A stretch of 23,501 bases of DNA. It comes from a virus. The stretch is from positions 1 through 23,501 of the IMG/VR virus record IMGVR_UViG_3300006101_000070; one strand, given 5' to 3'. Position 1 is the stretch's first letter; every line of letters begins with the position of its first letter. A program made the translations under genes and the position numbers. Positions 8,978 through 20,200 of the stretch are shown here, in pieces. The notes below the pieces were generated by a model. It ran no database searches, was not told where the DNA came from, and saw only the letters and a program-made list of their open reading frames with translations.

Positions 8978-9370
8978 TCAATACCAGCCGAATCTCTTTT
9001 CGTGACTCCAAGCGGCACACGGAGTCGAATAACGGCGGCTAATGTATCGCAAGCCGTACTGGATTTGCGTGTACGCGCTCTTAGGCTCGAACTGCATTTT
9101 GTAATTTCCCCATGTCGTAGGCAGAAATTGAGCAATCCCGAACGCTCCAGAAGATTTGTTTCGGGCTTTCGGATTCCAATTACTCTCTTGCTTCCACAAC
9201 TTAACGAGGCATGAATACTGATACCGGTCTGATACCTGAAGCCGAGCATACTCTTTCGGACTCATCTGAATTACGAGGTGCCTTTTAGGCGCGAAAGCGG
9301 CTTGCGCTCCAACAGTTTGCAAAGATCCAACCACTATGGCAATTACGAGGATTTTTGCCTTACCCTTTAT
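8978..9370 (-). CDS. Secreted lytic transglycosylase-like protein, possibly with AUA start
   Basis: The catalytic part resembles actinobacterial SLT-type domains: CLVKLWKQESNWNPKA with a likely catalytic Glu, SSGAFGIAQFLPTTW, then YGLRYISRRYSTPCAAWSHE and GWY. It should cleave peptidoglycan. The first canonical start, GTG at 9334, has no Shine-Dalgarno and would cut into a signal peptide. In frame upstream lie a Lys-rich segment, ILVIAIVVGSL and AQAAFA, a complete Sec signal. That frame has no ATG, GTG or TTG before an in-frame stop. ATA at 9368-9370 has AAGG 7 bases upstream and overlaps the preceding TAA stop as ATAA. I therefore give 130 residues from ATA. An assembly error is possible. 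Roles in entry, wall remodelling or lysis are all possible. Confidence 0.65.
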   Translation of the reverse strand: MKGKAKILVIAIVVGSLQTVGAQAAFAPKRHLVIQMSPKEYARLQVSDRYQYSCLVKLWKQESNWNPKARNKSSGAFGIAQFLPTTWGNYKMQFEPKSAYTQIQYGLRYISRRYSTPCAAWSHEKRFGWY

Positions 9371-9471
9371 CGGGTCGCCTTACTTCCAATCTTGCAGACT
9401 TCGCAATCGTTTCCTGCATAGATCCATTCGCCGCACTTGTGACGGCTAATTTTTTTGTCGTCGTTATCCAT
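9367..9471 (-). CDS. Cys-containing microprotein (34 aa)
   Basis: A short gene with a strong Shine-Dalgarno (AAAGGGACGAAA before ATG) encodes MDNDDKKISRHKCGEWIYAG and then NDCEVCKIG. Three cysteines and a histidine suggest a small metal-binding knuckle. Its stop overlaps the possible ATA start of the transglycosylase-like gene, so it could couple translation of that gene. Family not recognised. Confidence 0.65.
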   Translation of the reverse strand: MDNDDKKISRHKCGEWIYAGNDCEVCKIGSKATR

Positions 9472-9505
9472 TTTCGTCCCTTTCCGGTGATAGCGGATTT
9501 CTTCA

Positions 9506-9514
9506 ATTTTACAC
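9506..9514 (-). promoter_or_regulatory. Candidate -10 box (GTGTAAAAT)
   Basis: Minus-strand GTGTAAAAT lies 35 bases before the microprotein ATG. It resembles the TGTAATCT boxes elsewhere and fits TANNNT. It may drive the microprotein, transglycosylase and HNH genes. Confidence 0.35.
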
Positions 9515-9520
9515 CCTGAA

Positions 9521-9540
9521 CCCCTGATGACGGTCAGGGG
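9521..9540 (-). promoter_or_regulatory. Inverted repeat, 7-bp stem
   Basis: CCCCTGA and TCAGGGG flank a 6-base loop just upstream of the candidate -10. It has no following T run, so an operator or RNA hairpin is likelier than a rho-independent terminator. Bases 9472-9570 hold this hairpin, the -10-like box and a second hairpin, but no gene that I can see. Confidence 0.45.
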
Positions 9541-9550
9541 CTAGGGCGTT

Positions 9551-9569
9551 TTTCGCTTTTTAGGCGAAA
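9551..9569 (-). other. Hairpin downstream of the FmdB-like gene
   Basis: TTTCGC and GCGAAA pair around a 7-base loop directly after the stop of the zinc-ribbon gene. The position suits a transcript end or 3'-stabilising hairpin. The minus-strand sequence that follows (AACGCCCTAG) is not T-rich, so a rho-independent terminator is doubtful. Confidence 0.35.
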
Positions 9570-9570
9570 C

Positions 9571-9744
9571 CTATTTACTTCCACCCCATCCGTCGCCCTT
9601 AAAAATCGGGCGAAAGGTAGAAAACTTGCGAGATGCTTCCCCTTTACATATAGGGCAGATTTCGAACTCCGGAGCCGTTCCGATAGGGTATTCGACTTCG
9701 AGTAATGCTCCATCGACTTTGCACTCGTATTCGTAATTAGCCAA
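9571..9744 (-). CDS. FmdB-like zinc-ribbon protein (57 aa)
   Basis: A 57-residue product begins MANYEYECKVDG and continues through FEICPICKGEASRKFS to IFKGDGWGGSK. The Y-E-Y-E-C start, CPIC pair and F-K-G-x-G-W ending match small FmdB-type zinc-ribbon proteins common in phages and bacteria, though the first Cys pair is reduced to one Cys. The start is TTG at 9744, with AGGGG six bases upstream. The function of the family is unclear; a regulatory or nucleic-acid-binding role is usually guessed. It overlaps the upstream HTH gene by 8 bases. Confidence 0.75.
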   Translation of the reverse strand: MANYEYECKVDGALLEVEYPIGTAPEFEICPICKGEASRKFSTFRPIFKGDGWGGSK

Positions 9745-9904
9745 TCTTTACCCCTAACGCCACTTCGCGGATTTTTTGCTGAGATACCCCATAACGCTGA
9801 GCCAACTCTATTACATTGACTGCCCTACCGTTTTCGACTTTATATTCCTTCTGAATTTGTTGTTTTTGTTCCTTCGTCAGCGGAATTCGTGATGCTGGTC
9901 GCAT
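9737..9904 (-). CDS. Small helix-turn-helix protein (55 aa)
   Basis: The 55-residue product (MRPASRIPLTKEQKQQIQKE, then VIELAQRYGVSQQKIREVA) reads as a homeodomain-like or sigma70-region-4-like HTH. It is a probable DNA-binding regulator. AAGGA lies about 13 bases before the ATG, somewhat far. The first 65 bases overlap the 98-residue gene in another frame. The HTH is complete within this frame, which supports translation. Confidence 0.6.
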   Translation of the reverse strand: MRPASRIPLTKEQKQQIQKEYKVENGRAVNVIELAQRYGVSQQKIREVALGVKIG

Positions 9905-10136
9905 TTTTTTGGTAATTTCCTTTTTTGATTATATCGATTGCTAATTTCAACCCGGCGACTTCGCTTAATAAGCATTTATCGAGTTCAATTTGTTTTTCGA
10001 ATTCTTCGATTATTTGCTTTCTTTGTCCGTGGTATCTTGCCGACATTTGCCCGATATAGCGCATTTCTGCTTCTAAGAGATCTTCTAGGAGAAGAATCTG
10101 TTGCGCCTGTCGAATAAACCTTTTTAATGTAATCAT
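9840..10136 (-). CDS. Small coiled-coil protein of unknown function (98 aa)
   Basis: Residues 1-75 are strongly helical and charged, with FIRQAQQILLLEDLLEAEMR and IIEEFEKQIELDKCLLSEV, suggesting a coiled coil. The last 22 or so residues are Thr/Asn-rich and overlap the HTH gene in a different frame. The start forms an ATGA overlap with the upstream gene. Not recognised; a small adaptor or inhibitor would be a guess. Confidence 0.6.
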   Translation of the reverse strand: MITLKRFIRQAQQILLLEDLLEAEMRYIGQMSARYHGQRKQIIEEFEKQIELDKCLLSEVAGLKLAIDIIKKGNYQKNATSITNSADEGTKTTNSEGI

Positions 10137-13373: not shown

Positions 13374-14168
13374 TTACGATTTGAACCTTAAATCCTTGAC
13401 GATTTCCTTCACCGAATCGGGCATTGGAACGCCCTCTCGAATGTCGGCAGGGCTGAACCTAGGTGGTAGGGGCGTAGGGGTGGTGATAATGGCTCTGGAA
13501 CCGGCTAGGAGCCGTTTTTCAGGTAGCGGAGCATCCAGCCACCGGTCGCCATTCAGCCAAGTCGAAGGATGAGCCGTGAAAGCAGGGTCACGATTAGGAT
13601 CTCGAGCATATCTTTCAACCCCTTCGATAATAATTTGACGCGATGCGCGCTTAATTGCCTTTGCCCAAGATTTCAGAGCGGTCGCCTTTCCGACTTTTAT
13701 CGGGTAGGTAGCCCAGAAAAGGTCGAAGGTATATATATCTTCTTTATCTTTATCTTTATCTTTATGGTTGAACGTTCGTTCAACGTCCGTTGAATCTAAT
13801 TCATCATCTCGTTGAACGGTCGTTGAACGGTCGTTGATTTCACGCTTAGTCGCAGACTTTTTACCAGCCATCGAAGCCTGTTCAGACTTCTCCCGGACTT
13901 TCGCAAGATCATTTTCGACCCTTGCGTGTGTCCAGATATCGCCATCGACCCAAAAAAACTCGGCAAGGATTTCTCGATTATCTTCCCATTCTTCAAGAGT
14001 CATGCGAGCCACGAAAGCGAGCCGGTTCCCGGAGTTGTCTAAGGGTTTCCCTCTCTGCCAGTAATTCATCAGCAAGAGCAGGTACGCCCCATTCTGAGCC
14101 GCGTTCAAGTGAGCCGTGTCGGCTAGGTAATCGCTGACATAAAGTTGCATATACGGTAATGAACTCAT
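13374..14168 (-). CDS. DUF1376-family replication protein with an internal iteron-like region
   Basis: The 264-residue product begins with a DUF1376 (YdaU-like) domain: YMQLYVSDYLADTAHLNAAQ and NGAYLLLLMNYWQRG. These proteins are linked to phage replication initiation or primosome loading. After a charged linker with NHKDKDKDKEDIY comes FDLFWATYPIKVGKATALKS, then TAHPSTWLNGDRWLD, a C-terminal domain also seen in phage replication proteins. The linker DNA holds 11-bp repeats whose phase does not match codons, beside an AT-rich tract (13731-13843). That is similar in layout to the lambda O gene, which contains its own origin. It starts in an ATGA overlap with the WhiB gene. No helicase or DnaC loader is seen nearby. 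Confidence 0.85.
   Translation of the reverse strand: MSSLPYMQLYVSDYLADTAHLNAAQNGAYLLLLMNYWQRGKPLDNSGNRLAFVARMTLEEWEDNREILAEFFWVDGDIWTHARVENDLAKVREKSEQASMAGKKSATKREINDRSTTVQRDDELDSTDVERTFNHKDKDKDKEDIYTFDLFWATYPIKVGKATALKSWAKAIKRASRQIIIEGVERYARDPNRDPAFTAHPSTWLNGDRWLDAPLPEKRLLAGSRAIITTPTPLPPRFSPADIREGVPMPDSVKEIVKDLRFKS
13731..13843. repeat. Iteron-like 11-bp repeats beside an AT-rich tract (candidate origin)
   Basis: On the plus strand, repeats related to GTTGAACGGTC begin at 13767, 13778, 13789, 13811, 13822 and 13833, all in one 11-bp register. GTTGAACGGTC occurs exactly twice in tandem at 13811-13832. GTTGAACGTTC and GTTCAACGTCC form an inverted pair at 13767-13788. The degenerate register at 13800 fills the gap. 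Immediately left is a G-free tract, 13731-13765, with ATATATAT and four exact CTTTAT copies (13742-13765). Eleven is not a multiple of three, so the repeat is not a protein repeat. Iterons plus a melting region suggest an origin or regulatory site. Confidence 0.6.
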
Positions 14169-14647
14169 ACGTTCCCCATCGCTTCGTTAATCATTGTTTC
14201 GGTAATTCCATAAACGGCAAAATCTTTGAGCACCTTTGTTTTGAGATCAGATTTTCTTGGTGACAATAGTGCTCGCCTTTCTTCGGTAGTCATTCCACCC
14301 CATACGCCGTAATTTTCATGGTGCGCTCCATAATTTAGGCACTGCTTCCAAATAGGGCAAGGGATACAGGTAAATCGAAAAACATCTATGCCGACCACCG
14401 CCCGCACGTTTTTTTCCTCAATCTTAAAAAACATATCCGGCGGCAAAGTTTTGCACGCGGCGTTTTTCCATTTGATTTCGGAGTATTGCGGATTGGCATA
14501 ATGGTCAAAAAGAGCGTCGAGTTGATACCGGTCGAATGTCCTATCCTCGAACATGACGACCTCGTATTTATCGGCAAGCCTTTTTACGGTTCGCTCGCTT
14601 ACTCCATATCTATCTGAAGCAGTTTTCAACGAGATTTTGACGGACAC
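14165..14647 (-). CDS. WhiB-family Fe-S regulator with N-terminal HTH
   Basis: The 160-residue product ends in a WhiB domain: AACKTLPPDMFF (Cys65), FTCIPCPIWKQCLNYG (Cys94, 97, 103) and GVWGG (114-118), followed by MTTEERRALL. The four Cys should bind a 4Fe-4S cluster, and the G[VI]WGG turn usually contacts the sigma factor. This family is essentially confined to Actinobacteria and their phages and is the main host clue. Residues 5-50 form an extra HTH, LKTASDRYGVSERTVKRLA, that could bind DNA directly. It starts with GTG at 14647 and overlaps the Cas4-like gene by 22 bases. It likely redirects host RNA polymerase or controls phage genes. Confidence 0.88.
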   Translation of the reverse strand: MSVKISLKTASDRYGVSERTVKRLADKYEVVMFEDRTFDRYQLDALFDHYANPQYSEIKWKNAACKTLPPDMFFKIEEKNVRAVVGIDVFRFTCIPCPIWKQCLNYGAHHENYGVWGGMTTEERRALLSPRKSDLKTKVLKDFAVYGITETMINEAMGNV

Positions 14648-17483: not shown

Positions 17484-17735
17484 TTATGCCCCCCATCTTA
17501 CGAGGACTTCCGGTGCGAACTTTTTAGCGCACTCAGATCCAACAGGGAAACATCCCTGAGAGTTTTTCTCGTCACTACCAACGACGATAAGTTCCCATCG
17601 CGTACTGACCTCAAAATAAAAAGAGTTTTTACCTAACTTGCGACCGCATGAATAACAATGCGTAAGCCCGTCTGCCGCTTTAGGATTTAGTGGTGCACGA
17701 TCTCCAACATTAAACTCGAATGTTGTTGTTGTCAT
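17484..17735 (-). CDS. Small Cys-containing protein (83 aa)
   Basis: MTTTTFEFNVGDRAPLNPKA is followed by HCYSCGRKLGKNSFYFEV and FPVGSECAKKFAPEVLVRWG. The CYSC pair and later Cys residues suggest a small zinc-binding fold, similar to short phage proteins of the form CYxCGRxL. It is the first gene after the divergent region at 17736-17868 and has a long leader with hairpin and TGTAATCT box. It may head the operon that runs to the recombination genes. The Shine-Dalgarno GGAAGGCAAA is strong. Confidence 0.7.
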   Translation of the reverse strand: MTTTTFEFNVGDRAPLNPKAADGLTHCYSCGRKLGKNSFYFEVSTRWELIVVGSDEKNSQGCFPVGSECAKKFAPEVLVRWGA

Positions 17736-17753
17736 TTTTTGCCTTCCTGTCGG

Positions 17754-17771
17754 GGTTCATTCTCTTGAACC
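17754..17771 (-). other. Leader hairpin (GGTTCA-AGAGAA-TGAACC)
   Basis: A 6-bp perfect stem with a 6-base loop lies between the TGTAATCT box and the start at 17735. It is the third leader hairpin with this placement, after 12427-12440 and 12705-12717. Possible 5' RNA-stability element or operator. Confidence 0.4.
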
Positions 17772-17781
17772 TGATAGCCAA

Positions 17782-17789
17782 AGATTACA
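17782..17789 (-). promoter_or_regulatory. TGTAATCT box (candidate -10), divergent region
   Basis: The minus-strand box lies 47 bases before the start at 17735. GTTGCT is about 16 bases upstream. Bases 17736-17868 lie between divergent genes and should hold promoters for both strands. On the plus strand I see a GGCAGGATT Shine-Dalgarno but no clear -10/-35. Confidence 0.4.
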
Positions 17790-17868
17790 CCCAGAAATCC
17801 GAAAGCAACACCATTTGCCGAAGAAAGTTAAAAAATCTTTTGGGCGAGTCTTATGGCAGGATTAGCCC

Positions 17869-18063
17869 ATGATTCGAGTTCAGATCAGCCTGTGGAGCCT
17901 AGCCGTCGTGGTCGAGGCCGAGTTGAAGTATCCAGATCAGGTTGACGATATTGTAAATAGGGCATCTACGCTCTTTGTTACCGGCCTCATGGCCGCCAAA
18001 AATCAGGGATTAGATATTGCCACCACGACAACCCTGTTCGATCCCGATTCAGACGAGGATTAG
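17869..18063 (+). CDS. Lone plus-strand small protein (64 aa)
   Basis: This is the only gene I call on the plus strand. It has ATG at 17869, with AGGAT about seven bases upstream, and encodes MIRVQISLWSLAVVVEAELK, YPDQVDDIVNRASTLFVTGL, then MAAKNQGLDIATTTTLFDPD. It looks like a strand followed by helices and an acidic tail. No minus-strand gene is visible in this stretch, so the plus frame is the best reading. Its stop overlaps the stop of the convergent Ntn-hydrolase gene in four bases. I do not recognise a family; a regulator is possible. Confidence 0.6.
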   Translation: MIRVQISLWSLAVVVEAELKYPDQVDDIVNRASTLFVTGLMAAKNQGLDIATTTTLFDPDSDED

Positions 18064-18590
18064 ACTTTTTTCTGCTCCATGTATAAAAAGGGAGCCGCCG
18101 TATAGGGGTCATGCCGGCTTGCTATGGTTAAGGCATCCTCAATACTTGCCCCGGCCTCTAACGCTCCTATGGCAAGGCTCGAACCGCTACCGACCCCATA
18201 AAAACCTGTATCCGTTAGGCTCACGGCAAAGTCGTCTGCAATATCGAAAACTTCGCCCCCGACGGCAATCAGGAAAGAAAACTTCGTTTCATCTCCCTTT
18301 TCTTCCCACTTATAGTCGTGCTCCTTAAAACAGGCTTTCAGCGAAGGCACGACTTTTGCAATAACGAAATGGTAGAAATCTCTTTTATCGGTAGCAGTAG
18401 GAACCGGCGGCGTCCAAATATGTTGAGCGATATCGCAAGCCGCAGATTCTCCAGCACCGGCGATGATGAACTGACCTCTCTGCGAGATCTTAACCATACG
18501 AGGGTGCTTAAACTTTCTCGTAGCAGTAACTAAGGAATCAGCACCAAAAATTACGCCATCCTCAGACTGAACCGCCACGATAGTTGTCAT
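18060..18590 (-). CDS. HslV/20S proteasome beta-like Ntn hydrolase
   Basis: The 176-residue product begins MTTIVAVQSEDGVIFGADSL. Removing Met exposes Thr1. Counting from that Thr, Asp17 lies in GADS and Lys33 in HPRMVKI, the catalytic triad of proteasome beta subunits and HslV. GQFIIAGAGESAACD resembles the GFAGG-type loop. YGVGSGSSLAIGALEAG (about 130-146) and IASRHDPYTAAPF match HslV's AIGSG and IYT-F segments. Length agrees with HslV (about 175). No propeptide is present. It probably forms a barrel peptidase. No ATPase partner such as HslU is seen. It starts directly after the metallophosphoesterase stop. Confidence 0.8.
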   Translation of the reverse strand: MTTIVAVQSEDGVIFGADSLVTATRKFKHPRMVKISQRGQFIIAGAGESAACDIAQHIWTPPVPTATDKRDFYHFVIAKVVPSLKACFKEHDYKWEEKGDETKFSFLIAVGGEVFDIADDFAVSLTDTGFYGVGSGSSLAIGALEAGASIEDALTIASRHDPYTAAPFLYMEQKKV

Positions 18591-19625
18591 TTAATCAAGC
18601 CATACCTTATATGCCGCAGTAACGCGACCCTTAACAGGATCAACGAAGTGAAGCCGTTGCGAAGGGGTAGCACTAGCGGCAAGCATTACGCCGGCGTACC
18701 GGTTATCGCTTTCAGTAGAGCCGCTTTGATAAACACTTCCCTGACCGTTAGCCATTGCCCACTCCGCGTGAGTGTGATAATGCCCAATATAAACATCGCG
18801 AAACTCCCACGGATACGCGCCAGATCTCCACCGGTTTGCGTGTTGCACAATCGCACCCGGACTAGCGAATCCATTTCGACCCACTTCATCGCCGTGAATA
18901 AGTAACGCTCTGTAATTACCAATCTCTACGCGCTGGATATCTTCCGGACATTCCTGCCACGTTAGACGTTTTTCTCCAGAGAGAAGTTGGCGAGCCAATT
19001 CATAACACATCCGGTCGAAGTTATCGGAGCGAGGCACGTTGTCGCGCTTAGATCCAATACGACCATGATTACCCCACTCAGGGATTACGTTGACTTTAGA
19101 ATAGTTAGCGAGCGCAAATCGAACCACATCAACCAGCAATCGGCTGACATTTACATATTGCTCGAATAACGTAGAGTCGATTTCGAACGCCTGACTAGGA
19201 AAGTTGAATAGACCTTCCACCATGTCGCCACCGAACATAATCGTGCAATCATTTACAGGATGGTCGGCTCGCATGATATCCGTAATTGAGATGGCCTTTT
19301 CTGCAAAGGTTAAAACTCTCTGACGCATAATCTCAGAGTTGTACGAAGTAGTTTTCTTTGCACCCTGCCAGTCAGTCATGTGCCAAAGAGCGACTTCCGG
19401 TTTCTTCTTTCCCTTTTCTAATTTTCTTTCTGGGACAGGCTGAATCGCACCCATTCCCAAAACGGCATCGTGCGCAGACTGTTGGGTTGCTTCGACGAGT
19501 TGGTCAGTTCGTTGCTTTGCTTCAAGGAGTTGTTTCTGCGTTCGCATAAGTGCTTTACGAAGTTCAGTAACATCATTTGACTCGATTCCTTCAGGGATCT
19601 CACTTAGTCGTTTGCTTAGGCTCAT
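18591..19625 (-). CDS. Calcineurin-like metallophosphoesterase
   Basis: The 344-residue product has a charged N-terminal coiled coil (about 18-50), then the metallophosphoesterase motifs: HMTDWQ (82-87), FGGDMVEG (131-138), WGNHGR (184-189), LIHGDEVG (242-249) and GHYHTHAEW (281-289). These bind two metals. The usual NH[ED] is GNHGR here, so the central position is altered. Substrates could be DNA ends, as in SbcD/Mre11, or small phosphodiesters; it is not an obvious SbcD because there is no SbcC partner. Similar proteins occur widely in phage genomes. The start overlaps the DUF6378-like gene as TAATG. Confidence 0.85.
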   Translation of the reverse strand: MSLSKRLSEIPEGIESNDVTELRKALMRTQKQLLEAKQRTDQLVEATQQSAHDAVLGMGAIQPVPERKLEKGKKKPEVALWHMTDWQGAKKTTSYNSEIMRQRVLTFAEKAISITDIMRADHPVNDCTIMFGGDMVEGLFNFPSQAFEIDSTLFEQYVNVSRLLVDVVRFALANYSKVNVIPEWGNHGRIGSKRDNVPRSDNFDRMCYELARQLLSGEKRLTWQECPEDIQRVEIGNYRALLIHGDEVGRNGFASPGAIVQHANRWRSGAYPWEFRDVYIGHYHTHAEWAMANGQGSVYQSGSTESDNRYAGVMLAASATPSQRLHFVDPVKGRVTAAYKVWLD

Positions 19626-19879
19626 TATGAAAGTGCCGAATCTCTACCGTGTTTTGTATATCCCTCTTTATCGTCCCACGAATCTTCTTTGTAGGGATTA
19701 TAGAAAAGGCGAACAGATTTCAGCGCATCCATCATTAGCGCAACTTGATAAGCAGGAATATCATCTTCGAGTTTGAGAAATCCAGCCCAGACTCGACCAA
19801 TAGCAGTGAACTCAATATACGCGTCGCCATATTCTTCGAGGCGTTCTTTTAGTATTTCTTCTACTCGATTACCGGGCAT
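19625..19879 (-). CDS. DUF6378-like small protein (84 aa)
   Basis: MPGNRVEEILKERLEEYGDA, YIEFTAIGRVWAGFLKLED, VALMMDALKSVRLFYNPYK, then DDKEGYTKHGRDS. The Y-G-D start, hydrophobic helix with LKSVR, and D-x-x-GY ending resemble DUF6378 and MazG-like helical proteins found in phages. That is a recollection, not a search. A nucleotide-pyrophosphohydrolase-type role is possible but the acidic metal motif is incomplete. ATG at 19879 has GGAAGATGTAA upstream. It overlaps the previous gene by 19 bases. Confidence 0.6.
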   Translation of the reverse strand: MPGNRVEEILKERLEEYGDAYIEFTAIGRVWAGFLKLEDDIPAYQVALMMDALKSVRLFYNPYKEDSWDDKEGYTKHGRDSALS

Positions 19880-20097
19880 TTACATCTTCCGCTTCTGTGA
19901 TTATTGAAAGTTGCTTCGGCTATTTGATAACCCTCAGAACGAAGTGCCGCAGTAAGAGTCGTTGTTGGCGTACCTTTTTGGATATGAGCGAGCAGATCTT
20001 TACGGTCGGTTTCGTTCAACATATCAATGATGATTGCCAACGTGCATTTGCTTTCGGATTTTGTTGTATGTCTTTCGATTGAATCGGCTAGTGCCAT
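19861..20097 (-). CDS. Small HTH-like early protein (78 aa)
   Basis: First gene after the terminator: MALADSIERHTTKSESKCTL, AIIIDMLNETDRKDLLAHIQ, then TLTAALRSEGYQIAEATFNN and HRSGRCKC. The pattern of a Cys, DR-x-x-L helix, T-x-LTxALRxEGY and a basic H-R-x-G-x-C end is common in phage early proteins and reads as a small HTH. It has an AAAGGGGGGC Shine-Dalgarno. It probably marks the start of the early transcript. A DNA-binding role is inferred. Confidence 0.65.
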   Translation of the reverse strand: MALADSIERHTTKSESKCTLAIIIDMLNETDRKDLLAHIQKGTPTTTLTAALRSEGYQIAEATFNNHRSGRCKCPVIE

Positions 20098-20113
20098 TTT
20101 GCCCCCCTTTACG

Positions 20114-20146
20114 AGAGAAGCGTACCGAGAAAAATCCAGAGAAGCG
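20114..20146. repeat. 9-bp direct repeat in the early leader
   Basis: AGAGAAGCG occurs at 20114-20122 and 20138-20146, 24 bp apart, between the terminator and the first early gene. It could be an operator pair or part of the early promoter, but two short copies may be chance. Bases 20098-20164 hold no gene that I can see. Confidence 0.3.
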
Positions 20147-20164
20147 AACTGACACGCTAAAAGA

Positions 20165-20200
20165 AAATAGCCACGGGCAAGCGGATCCCCGTGGCTATTT
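20165..20200 (-). terminator. Strong rho-independent terminator, likely bidirectional
   Basis: AAATAGCCACGGG pairs perfectly with CCCGTGGCTATTT (13 bp) around a 10-base loop. On the minus strand the stem is followed by TTTTCTTTT, and on the plus strand by a weaker TTTCTGTTT. It ends the tail-lysis transcript after the holin-like gene and insulates the early genes starting at 20097. Confidence 0.9.

Follow-up and report, generated by a model that had tools for sequence, protein, structure and literature searches.

A proteasome-type threonine peptidase widespread in WhiB-bearing actinophages: a candidate unfoldase-independent infection factor

Descriptions of phage members of the proteasome family go back to at least 2020-2021 (PMC8665760, PMC7823757, PMC7289586), and those who catalogued phage proteasome homologues state that they did so without clues to function (PMC8665760). 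No AAA+ partners were found for the phage and bacterial proteasome homologues, and the long acidic loop of one of them, BPH, was tied to the absence of unfoldase regulation (PMC8665760). Moreover, Fuchs, Alva and Lupas (2021; PMC8665760) found no Actinobacteria-specific phage carrying AAH, another of these homologues. Here we describe a gene of this general kind in a stretch of DNA of 23,501 nucleotides from a freshwater virus (IMG/VR record IMGVR_UViG_3300006101_000070, positions 1 to 23,501; hereafter the window). The gene type is already known; what is new is its abundance, the selection acting on it, its actinophage hosts, its mobility and the existence of a portal-linked branch. In our opinion, its product is best read as a self-compartmentalizing, unfoldase-independent threonine peptidase that serves as an accessory infection factor, a reading to which we assign a probability of roughly 0.55.

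The gene occupies positions 18060-18590 of the minus strand, from an ATG start through the stop codon. It encodes 176 amino acids, with the N-terminus MTTIVAVQSEDGVIFGADSLV, and is classed as a proteasome-like threonine peptidase (HslV/BPH-type, PHROG 1040) by its open reading frame, profile matches and predicted fold. When residues are numbered from the threonine after the methionine, the predicted nucleophile Thr1 (codon 18585-18587), Asp17 (18537-18539) and Lys33 (18489-18491), all on the minus strand, are in place. The AGAG (43-46), GSGS (133-136) and HDPYT (159-163) motifs are likewise found just as the preliminary description had listed them, and Thr1 directly follows Met without a propeptide, in agreement with its proposal of activation by simple Met removal. 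Gly46 (codon 18450-18452, minus strand), which is invariant, corresponds in the 20S β alignment to the oxyanion-hole Gly47.

A scan of IMG/VR identified 94 relatives near the window protein, with 80 loci retrieved, and 144 relatives near the protein of phage E7, with 80 E7-like loci (L102-L181) inspected; since the two sets may overlap, the relatives number more than 140 in all. The active site is intact in every one inspected. Thr1, Asp17 and Lys33 are invariant in the 78 complete copies (the window copy included; 59 distinct), as are Thr2, Gly44, Gly46, Cys51, Asp52, His56 and Gly135; the three catalytic positions and Gly46 are equally invariant in the E7-like relatives (Thr1 in 80/80). Thus, homologues keep the residues whose loss would have spoken against the assignment. 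Compared with its nearest relative (91% identical), the window gene shows a dN of 0.047 and a dS of 0.64 (dN/dS ~0.07), and the median dN/dS of 0.13 over 57 usable pairs indicates strong purifying selection on the family. The combination of invariant catalytic residues with low dN/dS argues that the window protein is maintained as an enzyme. No cellular homologue was confirmed in 84,980 bacterial and archaeal genomes scanned with alignment A1. The protein is apparently a working, phage-owned threonine peptidase, its catalysis being predicted.

Two irregularities within the wider family deserve mention. Three copies (L028:4038, L045 and L046) have no ATG, GTG or TTG at the Met position, an ATC standing directly before Thr1. 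In L045 and L046, a start at an in-frame TTG that lies a few codons further upstream would add an N-terminal extension of five residues. Such genes either start at a rare ATC or encode a short propeptide. In the alignment of the phiM5 and CcrBL9 peptidases, Arg occupies the Lys33 position, which may be a misalignment.

Profile and structural comparisons place the protein within the proteasome superfamily. It scores 24.3 bits on the Pfam Proteasome model PF00227 (cut-off 22.4), a model that 33 of 33 family members match, and it matches PHROG 1040, "peptidase HslV family", over residues 1-174 (E 5.6e-27). Together with the invariance of the catalytic residues, these matches bear out the central claim of the preliminary description, that of a phage proteasome-type peptidase with an intact catalytic set. 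The best sequence match in the PDB is BPH 5ovu, which reaches E 1.3e-4 when the window protein is searched by itself and 6.2e-7 when the family profile is used. An AlphaFold2 model built with the family alignment as input (pLDDT 91.6, pTM 0.88) contains all four core helices (49-58, 72-90, 137-145 and 150-160). In structure comparison, the model is closest to BPH 5ovt (Z 17.8; 2.9 Å over 163 residues), followed by HslV 4hnz (17.5), Anbu 5nyg (16.1) and 20S β (about 16); because Z differences of less than 1 count as ties, BPH and HslV are inseparable by fold. Identity to BPH 5ovu is 26% over 167 residues. A Foldseek search of the PDB gives the same picture of proteasome-β/HslV-type neighbors, and in BFVD many predicted viral proteins match, one of which, from an uncultured phage, is named "HslV ATP-dependent protease". 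The predicted structure is thus that of an Ntn hydrolase with the four-layer αββα proteasome-β fold, rather than the non-Ntn fold that would have contradicted the original proposal.

Assignment to a particular described class is less direct. With HslV, the protein shares the fold, a length of 176 residues, a Thr-Thr start, Asp17, Lys33 and the GSGG/GSGS loop; however, it scores 8-10 times below the HslV cut-offs (15.7 bits against 157.75 and 16.5 against 137 for NCBIfam TIGR03692 and NF003964), its acidic loop is longer, and none of 17 phage records, several of them fragments, yielded an HslU-class ATPase. HslV proper was rejected for these scores, and the earlier label "HslV/proteasome-like" stands as to the fold and fails as to membership in HslV in the strict sense. 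Bacterial 20S β was likewise rejected (TIGR03690, 11.4 bits against a cut-off of 191.9; no propeptide). BPH (5ovs, 5ovt and 5ovu) is the best structural and PDB sequence match and has a long acidic pore loop as well, but it is cellular rather than phage-borne, it is tied by HslV in Z, and in the tree it is parted from the window clade by a long branch. The deep branches of this tree are long and partly unresolved, and it is used here for the window clade and a plasmid clade only. With the PPH and AAH proteins (PMC8665760), the window protein has in common a compact group I build, occurrence in phages, the lack of a propeptide and the fact that no AAA+ partner was found. PPH itself was set aside, being of ~140 residues and without helix 2, which in the 176-residue window protein is present in the model (72-90). 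AAH (KEGG OC.661151) was compared by its description rather than by its sequences, and on that basis window-type actinophages carry either a close analogue or a member of AAH. A clade found on plasmids of Rhizobium, Streptomyces and Bacillus, the spread of which resembles that of AAH, is homologous (hhalign 99.8%) and forms a separate clade (100/100). Plasmid loci of this clade (L088, L089, L090 and L094; Streptomyces, Rhizobium, Bacillus and Paraburkholderia) encode proteins of the pattern MTCIVGL...TSSFRMGQLL that are annotated as "hypothetical protein". The best model is that the window peptidase belongs to a compact bacterial and phage type on the HslV/BPH side of the family.

Membership in the superfamily does not by itself imply protein degradation. 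Connectase is a proteasome homologue turned ligase (PMC8665760), and the window protein could analogously be a highly specific Ntn enzyme, a ligase or a processing enzyme with a single substrate, rather than a protease. The family does have invariant residues beyond the catalytic set, namely the CDIAQH, PP and YHF motifs of the 33-row alignment, which such specificity would accommodate. Nevertheless, the insertion between strands 3 and 4 that is the hallmark of connectase is absent, and helices 1-4 are all there, as in the ring-forming members; we therefore consider a specific non-protease role quite improbable.

The first of these motifs, CDIAQH (residues 51-56; 18420-18437, minus strand), lies at the start of helix 1 and aligns with the S1 pocket of 20S β. 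In β2, the acidic residue 53 and Gly45 shape a trypsin-like S1 pocket. In the 20S β2 alignment the invariant Asp52 falls at the position of acidic residue 53 and Gly44 at that of Gly45, and from these β2-like positions we tentatively predict a trypsin-like pocket, with cleavage after basic P1 residues perhaps favored. The equivalent of Asp52 is mostly lost in E7-like relatives, where Gln replaces it in 62/80, so that specificity may differ between the groups.

The loop that follows helix 2 bears on the question of how substrates would be admitted. In the window protein this acidic loop, HDYKWEEKGDETK (18282-18320, minus strand), takes the "pore loop" position in the model and in loop alignments. 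It is a conserved feature: all 33 family rows have 12-18 residues here, with 3-7 Asp or Glu. Over the same alignment region the window protein has 16 residues and six acids, BPH 21 and seven, and E. coli HslV nine and one (the HslV sequence having been checked against the PDB). Such a conserved, BPH-like loop suggests that unfolded chains or peptides enter without an unfoldase.

The preliminary description had instead entertained joint work with a host ATPase, and a host unfoldase could indeed serve the peptidase. In this alternative the protein would dock as an HslV-like partner on HslU, ClpX, ClpC or Mpa/ARC and redirect regulated proteolysis of the host, which is speculation at present. The HslV-like fold, a weak match of every family member to HslV models and the fact that phages encode the peptidase half only, noted also for a Salmonella jumbo phage (PMC7823757), are consistent with it. 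Scores far under the HslV cut-offs, and a long acidic loop of the kind found in unfoldase-independent BPH in place of the short HslV loop, argue against it. The phages themselves offer no partner either. No ATPase of the PF07724/AAA_2 (HslU/ClpX/ClpC) class was found in 17 phage records, several of them fragmentary, with the control positive in 14/14 genomes; PF00004 matches are scattered over 7/19 records, none of them the window or its nearest relatives, and mark no conserved partner; and ClpP is absent from the phage records. The ATPase partnership is thus not borne out as far as the phages are concerned. We found no publication on the proteasome content of Nanopelagicales hosts. On balance, docking on a host ATPase seems distinctly unlikely, and entry without an unfoldase is preferred.

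The surroundings of the gene distinguish the window lineage from its more distant relatives. Immediately upstream lies a gene for a calcineurin-like metallophosphatase/exonuclease (PHROG 284; 18591-19625, minus strand), the stop codon of which abuts the peptidase ATG; a promoter scan of positions 17700-20200 found no minus-strand promoter-like site, in keeping with co-transcription of the two genes. On the opposite strand, a 64-residue open reading frame (17869-18063, plus strand), of plausible composition and without a PHROG match, has a stop codon that overlaps that of the peptidase. Among window-type relatives the gene occupies at least six placements, one of them inverted. It lies behind the metallophosphatase in 15 loci and the window, between a transglycosylase-like (SLT) gene and an HNH gene (HNH downstream in 37 loci), behind a histone-deacetylase-like gene in 6 loci (L024, L018-L020, L036 and L047), behind RuvC in 4 loci, behind the portal gene in 10 loci (its place in the L070-L080 group), and in the lysis region beside a small gene in L048. 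In L067 and L068 it is inverted relative to its neighbors, and its 3' end borders directly on the metallophosphatase gene. The histone-deacetylase-like protein (in L024 at positions 9083-9976; PF00850, E 6.7e-54) is encoded ~30 bases upstream of the peptidase in all six of its loci.

The main competitor to an accessory role is that of a head-assembly protease, which would trim portal, scaffold or head proteins while the capsid matures. The E7-like loci argue for it: there the gene directly follows the portal gene in 78/80, a fixed place within the head module. The portal-adjacent L070-L080 group and Sinorhizobium phage phiM5, in which the peptidase gene stands between terminase and portal, point in the same direction. 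Furthermore, no head protease of the PF04586 or PHROG 80 type was found in E7 or phiM5. In the window lineage, on the other hand, the gene stands beside the metallophosphatase, ~13 kb from terminase and portal, and in other lineages its neighbors are HNH, RuvC, deacetylase or lysis-region genes. In addition, HNH-placed relatives encode a separate head maturation protease (PHROG 80), the gene for which comes right before that of the capsid; the window stops before the corresponding part of the head module. Accordingly, classification as a head maturation protease by position in the head module was rejected for the window gene, and that position is the one seen in the E7-like phages. The portal-linked placement in the E7-like loci and in L070-L080 fits a head-assembly role that the window lineage may have kept; for the window protein this reading appears unlikely, and in the E7 group it is a serious possibility. 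If true there, it would mean a proteasome-type protease in virion assembly. A broader scheme, in which freshwater actinophages would have their own unfoldase-free, trypsin-like mini-proteasome that the E7-like branch fixed as a head-assembly protease behind the portal, is similarly doubtful.

The gene of the window lineage, which is movable and stands outside the head module, is best seen as accessory, and an autonomous infection factor is therefore its most likely role. Combining its sequence with established biology, we propose that host methionine aminopeptidase would remove Met and so expose Thr1, and that subunits would form a ring or double ring, as the fold family suggests, with the active sites inside. 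Substrates admitted past the acidic loop would be degraded there, and the enzyme may in this way act autonomously during infection, turning over or removing particular proteins of the host or the phage.

The suggested actinobacterial host is supported by a WhiB-like protein in the window (14165-14647, minus strand; PF02467, E 2.4e-13). We treat WhiB as a marker of actinophages (PMC10202952, PMC6802176); it was found in 15/19 peptidase-bearing records and, in a control set of 14 genomes, in Corynebacterium only. Peptidases of the PHROG 1040 type are present in 104 GenBank phage records, and those of the general window kind occur in phages of Arthrobacter, Microbacterium and freshwater actinobacteria. 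The peptidase is widespread in WhiB-bearing actinophages. Examples of PHROG 1040 include Actinomycetia phage DSL-LC01, "Ca. Planktophila" phages E7 and F5, Microbacterium phage Pumpernickel and Arthrobacter phage Pitbull. Like the window protein, these members have a Met-Thr start and Thr1/Asp17/Lys33 and are borne by phages of actinobacterial hosts; identity to them is ~30-35%, whereas the invariant CDIAQH and the shifting neighborhoods are the window clade's own. The two best GenBank phage matches (OX376640 and OX376641) are 35% identical over 99%, and OX376640 is consistent with phage E7, for which "Ca. Planktophila" strain LanE-43 was the isolation host.

The cultured phages E7 and F5 carry this more distant, 35% identical set of peptidases. 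With its many relatives, these cultured phages on "Ca. Planktophila", and mobile as well as head-module placements, the window family is among the more testable of the phage proteasome homologues. Phage E7 also contains a minus-strand open reading frame (L085:15749-16027) that consists of a long Val-Pro dipeptide repeat; the paper on phage E7 reports collagen-like proteins nearby, and the frame itself is probably a reading-frame artefact of the simple repeat.
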